Part shown: in pieces, positions 15,525-52,397 of the stretch
Layout: each line of letters begins with the position of its first letter
How positions within the stretch are numbered: position 1 is the first letter of the stretch
Assembly: GCA_017473265.1 (NCBI GenBank)
Contig: JAFULQ010000008.1
Span: forward strand, 62,001 to 126,000
DNA: 64,000 bases
Reading direction: 5' to 3'
Source of the DNA: Erysipelotrichaceae bacterium
GTDB lineage: Bacteria; Bacillota_I; Bacilli_A; Erysipelotrichales; Erysipelotrichaceae
The notes under the pieces: model-generated
Told to the model about the DNA's origin: nothing
Seen by the model: the letters and a program-made list of their open reading frames with translations, nothing else
Databases searched by the model: none
Translations under genes and position numbers: made by a program

Positions 15525-15530
15525 ATATGA

Positions 15531-15739
15531 AACTGATGAAAAGGAAAGAGTTTAAGCAAACTTGTAAGAGAAGACTAGTTGGTGGAAATGTCGCTTGTGT
15601 TGTTTAAAGGAATGCACCTTGGAGGGCTAATACGATATGTAGTATTAGACGTTGATGGCGTTAACATGTAAAGTGGAACATATTAATGTTCAAATAGAGT
15701 GGAACCGCGTTGATACGTCTCTTGTTAGAGGCGTTTTTT
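15531..15739 (+). promoter_or_regulatory. T-box riboswitch, cysteine specifier, upstream of cysS
   Basis: A T-box leader: the hallmark T-box AGAGTGGAACCGCG lies at 15696-15709, a stem I region with an AAGAGAAG element is followed by a specifier region GGAATGCACC with TGC (Cys) at 15613-15615, and a perfect stem CTAATAC / GTATTAG at 15627-15648. The terminator ACGTCTC TTGTTA GAGGCGT plus T-run is at 15715-15739. Uncharged tRNA-Cys pairing with the specifier and the T-box bulge would favour the antiterminator and switch on cysS. Confidence 0.92.
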
Positions 15740-29883: not shown

Positions 29884-29912
29884 TTGACAATCATACTATA
29901 AAAACGTATACT
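29884..29912 (+). promoter_or_regulatory. Promoter of the rplK-rplA operon
   Basis: TTGACA (29884-29889), exact 17-bp spacer, TATACT (29907-29912), preceded by A/T-tracts that could act as an UP element. The TTGTTGACA and TATACTAA contexts are shared with the rpsL promoter. Confidence 0.9.
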
Positions 29913-29915
29913 AAA

Positions 29916-29944
29916 CGTGCTACGCGAATCGTAGTGCGTTTTTT
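29916..29944 (+). promoter_or_regulatory. Attenuator-like hairpin at the 5-prime end of the rplKA leader
   Basis: CGTGCTACG, loop CGAAT, CGTAGTGCG (9 pairs, two G-U) followed by TTTTTT, starting at or before the expected transcription start. It looks like an intrinsic terminator but sits within the first 25 nt of RNA. A second weaker stem TGTGG / CCACA (29947-29981) lies between it and the rplK start and may be part of an L1/L11 autoregulatory site. Function inferred. Confidence 0.55.
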
Positions 29945-30011
29945 AGTGTGGGAGGGAGTATTACACGCCTGTAGAACCACAACTATAAAGAACCAACATA
30001 GGAGGGAAATT

Positions 30012-30434
30012 ATGGCAAAAAAAGGTAAGAAAATTACTAAGGTTTGTAAGTTACAGTTCAATGCTGGACAAGCAAAACCAGGACCAGCGTTAGCTTCTGC
30101 TGGTATCAACATGCCTCAATTCTGTACAGCATTCAACGATGCTACTAAAGACAGAATGGGCGATATCGTTCCTGTAATCATTACAGCATACGAAGACAAA
30201 TCATTCGAATTTGTATTAAAAACAACTCCTGCAAGTGTTATGTTAAAGAAAGCTGCTGGTATCAAAACAGCTGCATCTAACTCAAAACAAACAGCAGGTA
30301 AAATCACTAAAGCACAATTACGTGAAATTGCAGAATACAAGATGCCTGACTTGAATGCAAATGATATCGAAGGTGCTATGAACATTATTGCGGGTACAGC
30401 TCGTAATATGGGTATTGAGATCGTAGGGGAGTAG
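30012..30434 (+). CDS. rplK: 50S ribosomal protein L11
   Basis: 140 aa. [29 protein letters not shown] region binds the GTPase-associated centre of 23S rRNA; C-terminal [25 protein letters not shown] contacts rRNA helices 43/44. Target of thiopeptides and needed for RelA stimulation. RBS TAGGAGGG. Confidence 0.98.
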
Positions 30435-31155: not shown

Positions 31156-31159
31156 TAAA

Positions 31160-31278
31160 GATGTTATCAATATACCATAGACAGTAACGGCGTATGTGCT
31201 TAATCATGTTACCGAGGTAGATATAGTTTTAACAAAAACTTTTCAACTCGTGTCTATTGTATGGTCACGAGTTTTTTT
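31160..31278 (+). promoter_or_regulatory. L10 leader with attenuator upstream of rplJ
   Basis: A roughly 160-nt untranslated leader between rplA and rplJ. It contains a GTAACGGC ... GTTACCGAGG region typical of L10(L12)4 binding sites, and then a terminator AACTCGTG / CACGAGTT (31245-31273) with a T-run to 31278. In Firmicutes excess L10-L12 complex binds such a leader and lets the terminator form. Position and layout support this; the L10-binding fold was not computed. Confidence 0.75.
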
Positions 31279-31320
31279 AGGTATATTGTTGAACATATAG
31301 ATCAACAGGAGGTGTAAAAA

Positions 31321-44327: not shown

Positions 44328-44357
44328 TTGACAGTGTGAAGTTGATAATAGTATACT
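44328..44357 (+). promoter_or_regulatory. Promoter of the rpsL-rpsG-fusA operon
   Basis: TTGACA (44328-44333), 18-bp spacer, TATACT (44352-44357), with long A/T-tracts upstream (44295-44326) that may be an UP element. Confidence 0.85.
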
Positions 44358-44462
44358 AATCATGCTATGCGGAATATGGCTCTAGAAATAGAGCCAATTC
44401 GTTGGAGAAGAAAAGACACACCTGAAACCGTGTGTCATAAAATCGAAAGGAGGAAATGTTGC
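44358..44462 (+). promoter_or_regulatory. Structured 5-prime leader of the str operon
   Basis: Contains, in order, GCTATG-CGGAA-TATGGC (partly G-U), a perfect GGCTCTA GAAA TAGAGCC hairpin (44378-44395) and GACACAC / GTGTGTC (44415-44436), then AAAGGAGG. No long U-run, so not a simple attenuator. The start of this leader resembles that of the rplK leader. S7 or S12 autogenous control is possible but not demonstrated. Confidence 0.55.
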
Positions 44463-44882
44463 ATGCCAACAATTAATCAGTTAGTACGTAAGGGACGTGA
44501 AAATAAAGTTTGGAAATCTAAATCACCAGCTTTAAATAGAGGATATAACTCATTAAAACGTCGTCCAACAAATTTAAGTGCACCTCAAAAACGTGGGGTT
44601 TGTACTCGTGTAGGTACAATGACACCTAAGAAACCTAACTCAGCGTTACGTAAATACGCTCGTGTACGTTTAAGTAATAACATGGAAGTTACTGCTTATA
44701 TCCCAGGTATCGGTCATAACTTACAAGAACACAGTGTTGTGTTAATCCGTGGAGGACGTGTTAAGGACTTACCAGGGGTTCGTTATCACATTATTCGTGG
44801 TACATTGGACTGTGCTGGAGTTGCTAACCGTAACCAAAGCCGTTCTTTATATGGTGCTAAGAGACCTAAAAAAGGTAAATAA
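44463..44882 (+). CDS. rpsL: 30S ribosomal protein S12
   Basis: 139 aa from ATG 44463, set by GGAGG 8-9 bases upstream; a longer frame from 44367 lies in the leader. Decoding-centre protein. The streptomycin-related lysines are wild type: [15 protein letters not shown] and [12 protein letters not shown]. Confidence 0.98.
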
Positions 44883-52258: not shown

Positions 52259-52287
52259 TTGCATTACTAGTGGCTTTTTGATATATT
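52259..52287 (+). promoter_or_regulatory. Promoter of the S10-spc operon
   Basis: TTGCAT (52259-52264), 17-bp spacer, TATATT (52282-52287). The upstream 52215-52255 is almost only A and T in short A-tracts, a probable UP element. Confidence 0.75.
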
Positions 52288-52293
52288 ATTTTA

Positions 52294-52397
52294 GCGACCG
52301 TATGGACGTGCGAGGTTGCTGACCCACCGACAACCGTTGTCATGGCAGTGGCAGTCAGGTAATTCGCATCGAGCGGTGTCTATCATGGATGTAGACA
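52294..52397 (+). promoter_or_regulatory. Structured leader RNA of the S10 operon
   Basis: Markedly GC-richer than its surroundings. Nested pairings can be traced: ACCG 52297-52300 with CGGT 52374-52377; TGCGA 52309-52313 with TCGCA 52364-52368; TGAC-CCAC 52320-52327 with GTGG-ca-GTCA 52348-52357; apical GACAA CCG TTGTC 52329-52341; then TGTCTA / TAGACA 52377-52397 just before the RBS (it shares a base with the outer helix, so the two may compete). A likely autogenous control site for L4 or another S10-operon protein. Confidence 0.7.

Follow-up and report, generated by a model that had tools for sequence, protein, structure and literature searches.

Organization of the rplK and rpsL transcription units

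The window analyzed here is a 64,000-nt stretch of a 1.8-Mb draft genome from the family Erysipelotrichaceae (G000), and it carries two ribosomal protein transcription units on the plus strand. The first opens with the rplK promoter (29884..29912; TTGACA, 17-nt spacer, TATACT), followed by a predicted +1 at GC that begins a 5'-terminal hairpin, GCTACG-CGAAT-CGTAGT (29919..29935), which is kept in relatives with other letters. A GCG and a T run after this hairpin extend to 29944, and a uL1-type leader, GTGTGGGAGGG...GAACCACAAC (29947..29983), precedes the Shine-Dalgarno sequence (~30000-30006) and rplK itself (uL11, 30012..30434). The second unit opens with the rpsL promoter (44328..44357; TTGACA, 18-nt spacer, TATACT) and continues with a leader spanning 44364-44453. 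This leader consists of the predicted +1 GC and 5' arm of a basal helix P1, GCTATGCGGAAT (44364..44375, partner at 44397-44405), a P2 hairpin, TGGCTCTA-gaaa-TAGAGCCA (44377..44396), and a P3 core hairpin, GACACAC-CTGAAACC-GTGTGTC (44415..44436), upstream of rpsL (uS12, 44463..44882), rpsG and fusA.

Other structured elements were also seen. An L10 leader (RF00557) lies before rplJ at 31157-31286, as expected, and its promoter is without a GC start; a T-box leader (RF00230) occupies 15527-15725. A ZMP/ZTP riboswitch match just below the gathering score (36.7 of 39 bits) was found on the minus strand of locus L069 (114-192).

The initial annotation proposed a sequence common to the rplK and rpsL promoters that runs past the -10 element into the first nucleotides of RNA. 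The sequence TATACTAAnCrTGCTAyGCG is indeed present at 29907 for rplK and at 44352 for rpsL, with the same -10 (TATACT) and, at spacings of 17 and 18 nt, the same -35 region, TTGTTGACA. Allowing up to 3 mismatches, the joint 20-mer is matched twice in the window against 0.01 expected, an optimistic figure, as the pattern was derived from these same sequences; with up to 2 mismatches, it is matched genome-wide only at these two genes. Past the -10, 11 of 14 bases are identical, a level reached by 1.2% of between-genome rplK/rpsL pairs in the family (32/2728), so that the match is unusual, not extreme. The resemblance itself is genuine, save for what had been said of the rpsL fold and of the S10 promoter.

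A predicted GC start common to rRNA, tRNA and ribosomal protein promoters

Promoters were sampled by pattern search, with +1 read from spacing as 7 nt after the -10. In the family, GC stands exactly after six nucleotides (N6) in 37 of 46 rplK and 49 of 60 rpsL promoters, and most of the remaining ones have it within 1-2 nt. Across 58 family genomes, the pattern TTGACA-N16/18-TAnnnT-N6-GC gave 532 matches compared to 144 for a reversed control pattern, and shifting GC to N10 gave 186 versus 159. Of the 76 distinct TTGACA promoters in this genome, 12 carry GC at N6, compared to about 2 at other offsets.

The N6-GC set of this genome includes both tandem promoters of presumed rrn operons at contig ends, recognized from leader sequence and position, as 16S is absent from this assembly. 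It also includes five tRNA transcription units (tRNA-His, tRNA-Arg, tRNA-Asn, tRNA-Ile/Ala and a six-tRNA cluster), together with rplK, rpsL, rpsD, a leuS T-box and one short unidentified reading frame. In relatives, rRNA promoters have GC or GT at N6, followed by a hairpin. Across the family, the GC start marks rRNA, tRNA and several ribosomal protein promoters.

The rplJ, rpoB and S10 promoters of the window had been described as free of the shared feature. This is correct for rplJ and rpoB, both of which lack an N6-GC start, and wrong for the S10-operon promoter (52259..52295, plus strand; TTGCAT-N17-TATATT-ATTTTA-GC), which has the same N6-GC start, the element that is actually shared.

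GTP initiation and stringent control have been linked in Firmicutes (PMC9304144), and the N6-GC promoters of the family are consistent with this type, as G, mostly within GC, stands at the predicted +1 of most rplK, rpsL, rRNA and tRNA promoters. The earlier suggestion of start-nucleotide sensing or stringent control is plausible in this form, by way of the GC start, but not as a property private to rplK and rpsL, since rRNA and tRNA promoters have it in common.

The 5' hairpin and uL1-type leader of rplK

A stem-loop of the uL1 type, with arms GTGGGAG and ACCAC, lies 5' of rplK, and 43 distinct leaders from relatives share its consensus helix; this leader has no Rfam match. Where no extra 5' segment precedes the L1 site, the rplK RNA is predicted to begin right at the foot of the L1-type stem, with GCATGCGTGGGAG or GCACGTGGGAG. 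Where such a segment is present, a hairpin of 4-8 pairs starts from +1 to +3 in all 27 leaders, within about 3 nt of the predicted start, and its letters are largely unrelated from one leader to the next. Hairpin arms from the same genome pair better than arms swapped between genomes (-7.9 versus -4.0 kcal/mol, p about 1e-4). The rplK hairpin of this genome is no stronger than that of shuffled sequence; the case for it rests on relatives. The particular hairpin of this genome recurs, as predicted structures that resemble it, in G019 (L035; GCTAC-GCGAAA-GTAGC) and in another genus (G030:C69:11380-11448; GCTAC-GCGA-GTAGC).

A conserved rpsL leader in Bacilli

Both initial sequences had been proposed to fold as TGCTAyG, a loop and a partner strand. 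This holds for rplK, where GCUACG pairs with CGUAGU around the loop CGAAU, but the start of rpsL forms no such hairpin by itself and pairs instead with a strand beyond a second hairpin. In the family, P1 closes around P2, which is a hairpin of varying letters in all 60 leaders. Because a 36-sequence MAFFT alignment misaligned P2, leaving the resulting model (R1) with only 4 pairs, P1 covariation was tested by arm swapping: matched arms scored -4.6 and swapped arms -2.9 (p about 1e-4). Nucleotides +2 to +7 of rpsL are paired well above the level of shuffled leaders, and the P1 of this genome is weak and irregular. Thus the 5' ends of rplK and rpsL, although alike in letters, have separate structural roles.

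The P3 core is conserved across Bacilli, with the consensus A-U-G-R-M-M-C-R-C-C-Y-G-G-A-N-N-U-G-U-G-K about 14-80 nt 5' of the rpsL start and a near-invariant short form, AUGR..CRCCYGG...GUG (named loci L125-L204). It was found in sampled Bacillaceae, Paenibacillaceae, Staphylococcaceae, Enterococcus, Aerococcus, Erysipelotrichaceae, Izimaplasma and Peloplasma, and is missing from sampled streptococci and Clostridia. Counted over six pairs in 68 distinct sequences, 83% of cells are paired, and changes on both sides number 44 compared to 24 in shuffled and at most 7 in slid controls; the covariation is 0.26 versus 0.135 shuffled and at most 0.09 slid. Model R1 occurs in exactly one copy per genome in 110 of 392 genomes of a phylum sample, immediately 5' of rpsL in readable loci, with rpsG and fusA mostly next.

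Two other readings of this region were discarded. Second weak R1 matches 3' of rpsL in some loci are merely Shine-Dalgarno or AT-rich sequence from which the core is absent. A short upstream reading frame within the core (in Bacillus, AUG AAC CAC CUG ...) was rejected, as many relatives have AAG or a different triplet in place of its AUG and its codon changes are non-synonymous.

A conserved, covarying structure directly 5' of a ribosomal protein gene argues for an autoregulatory leader acting on rpsL-rpsG-fusA, which we consider probable, with S12 or S7 as the candidate ligand. No Rfam family matches it, and therefore it is filed as a candidate instead of a member of a named family. A sequence search of the P3 model against 16S-containing loci from six relatives found no 16S mimicry (best E 0.88). 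Accepted ribosomal protein leaders can lack obvious rRNA mimicry.

Predicted pairing of the 5' ends of rplK, rpsL and rRNA-like transcripts

Pairing close to the predicted start extends to rRNA. A hairpin begins between +1 and +4 at all 14 distinct rRNA-like starts, and stems of at least 5 pairs begin at +1 or +2 ~2-3 times as often as at offsets +3 to +12; a rise at offsets +13/+14 is probably owed to tRNA stems. In this family, rRNA transcripts are predicted to open with very short, sequence-variable hairpins at +1 (L237-L239, upstream of 16S), such as GCAC-UUCG-GUGC at the rRNA start in G087. The rplM (L13) promoter (L116, G000:C2:135280-136600) is followed by a 5'-terminal hairpin, GGCA-CTTTA-TGCC, that begins ~1 nt downstream of where the GC start usually lies. 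Three GC-start tRNA transcription units of this genome have no 5' hairpin from the predicted +1.

In B. subtilis, BsRppH requires a 5' end with at least 2 nucleotides unpaired, with a preference for G at position 2, and Bacillus mRNA is stabilized by hairpins near the 5' end (PMC3997798). Given these preferences, a C at +2 together with early pairing would guard the RNA against attack from the 5' end. The genome encodes two RNase J homologues. Paired GC 5' ends would probably shield the rplK and rpsL RNAs from attack by RppH and RNase J.

The hairpins could instead serve transcription, through promoter escape, R-loop prevention or pausing. Since hairpins from +1 to +4 also stand on rRNA transcripts, which are processed anyway and for which a benefit in stability is not obvious, a transcriptional role is a real alternative, albeit the less likely one. 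Sequence does not separate the two roles, and the rRNA precursor may need 5' protection as well.

Conservation of the shared letters in relatives

The similarity past the -10 had been taken to suggest a common signal, an idea that was to fall if relatives did not conserve +1 to +20, and as far as the letters go they do not. What relatives keep is each leader's own structure. A slightly relaxed joint motif stands at both genes in 2 of 146 family genomes, only this genome and its near-identical sister G097, and three further genomes, among them the congener G019 (at rplK), have single near-matches. Within the genus, G019 starts rplK with AGATATGCTACGCGAAAGTAGC and rpsL with TAATTCGCTTATGCGGAAT, and G069 starts them with TGATATGCTGCACATAGAGTGCAG and GAATAGGCTTATGCGGAAT; therefore, the start letters of the two genes drift independently.

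Within-genome similarity of rplK and rpsL over +1..+13 nevertheless exceeds shuffled pairing in the family (6.06 versus 4.95 of 13, p<0.001), and does so when shuffling is stratified by leader type (6.06 versus 5.52 of 13, p=0.002), partly because one clade starts both genes with GCATGCG. When related genomes were collapsed into 5 clusters, there was no significant similarity (p=0.17), at low power. A weak constraint on rplK and rpsL beyond the GC start is thus neither shown nor excluded.

These results bear on the possibility that TGCTAyGCG (+1 to +9) is a true common cis signal, read as DNA or RNA by RNA polymerase or by a protein that binds 5' ends, and coordinates both operons. The 11/14 identity in this genome, the family-wide excess over shuffled pairing and the GCATGCG clade speak for such a signal, but the different letters of the congeners, the two genomes with the joint motif, the loss of similarity on collapsing relatives (at low power) and the fact that its own helix accounts for each stretch make it improbable. 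There is accordingly no support for a signal carried by the specific sequence of +1 to +20, or for a single protein binding both 5' ends, since each stretch is part of a different RNA structure. The remaining TGCTAyGCG identity, specific to this genome and its sister, is a matter of chance or shared ancestry.

It is equally doubtful that the rplK hairpin and T run form a promoter-proximal attenuator, with an intrinsic terminator at ~+26: the hairpin is listed first among terminator-like sites of the window and U-rich tails follow it in several relatives, but it lies 5' of the entire L1 leader and no antiterminator partner was found. Termination was set aside as the principal explanation since many relatives that keep the hairpin (G010, G025, G065, G107, G082) do not have the U run.

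Discussion

Our preferred reading, to which we give a probability of about 0.74, is that rplK and rpsL share a start-site class and an immediate but structurally different pairing of the 5' end, and not a private signal. The strong sigma-A-type promoters of both genes would start at a predicted GC, as in rRNA, tRNA, S10 and rpsD promoters, and GTP initiation would place them under GTP-dependent stringent control by inference from B. subtilis. The rplK RNA would begin with a free-standing 5' hairpin followed by the uL1-type leader, and the rpsL RNA would have its 5' end paired in basal helix P1 of a separate P1-P2-P3 leader, which probably autoregulates rpsL-rpsG-fusA. The two RNA starts look alike because of the common G-C start and prompt folding into hairpins.

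An apparent private motif thereby becomes a general statement, that rRNA, tRNA and ribosomal protein promoters of the family share a GC start. More tentatively, rRNA, rplK and rpsL may share a 5' design that couples GTP-sensed initiation to decay resistance, alongside a previously undescribed rpsL leader in Bacilli whose near-invariant P3 would control the str operon. That the str operon of most Bacilli examined carries a conserved leader RNA is a testable general statement, and with the P3 core defined, a search for the ligand, S12 or S7, is straightforward. Control of the str operon by S7 has been described as unstudied in bacteria other than E. coli and one cyanobacterium (PMC10931766).

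Several known systems resemble parts of this arrangement. As in the GTP-initiated stringent promoters of Firmicutes, such as those of B. subtilis rRNA (Krasny and Gourse 2004, reviewed in PMC9304144), a predicted +1 G is found at rRNA, tRNA and ribosomal protein promoters, whereas here the dinucleotide GC is enriched and a hairpin often follows immediately. Pairing 1-3 nt from the predicted +1 matches 5'-terminal stem-loop stabilizers, namely 5'-terminal pairing in E. coli and the hairpins of Bacilli (PMC3997798); unlike those, the hairpins here also stand on rRNA starts, and they are putative stabilizers. The irregular GTGGGAG...ACCAC stem-loop, seen in this family, resembles the uL1 leader 5' of rplK (PMC10931766, PMC6431027), which as described differs from the present one in that, in ~60% of the leaders examined here, a 5'-terminal hairpin whose sequence is free to vary separates +1 from the L1 site.

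The rpsL leader of Bacilli is apparently uncatalogued, a provisional judgment, as older literature was only partly compared and an earlier description is possible. New leaders listed by Eckert and Weinberg include none for S12 or S7 (PMC7247131). The Pelagibacter rpsL motif (PMC2704228) likewise sits 5' of rpsL, but its P1 stem leads into a three-stem junction and it is confined to Pelagibacter and marine metagenomes. Naville and Gautheret (2010) described diverse rpsL attenuators, including terminator forms, with no globally conserved sequence or structure (PMC2965389, which cites Merino and Yanofsky). The leader described here is like these in being a structured leader of rpsL-rpsG-fusA, and unlike them it has no obvious terminator, ends near the Shine-Dalgarno sequence and carries a common P3 core across Bacilli.
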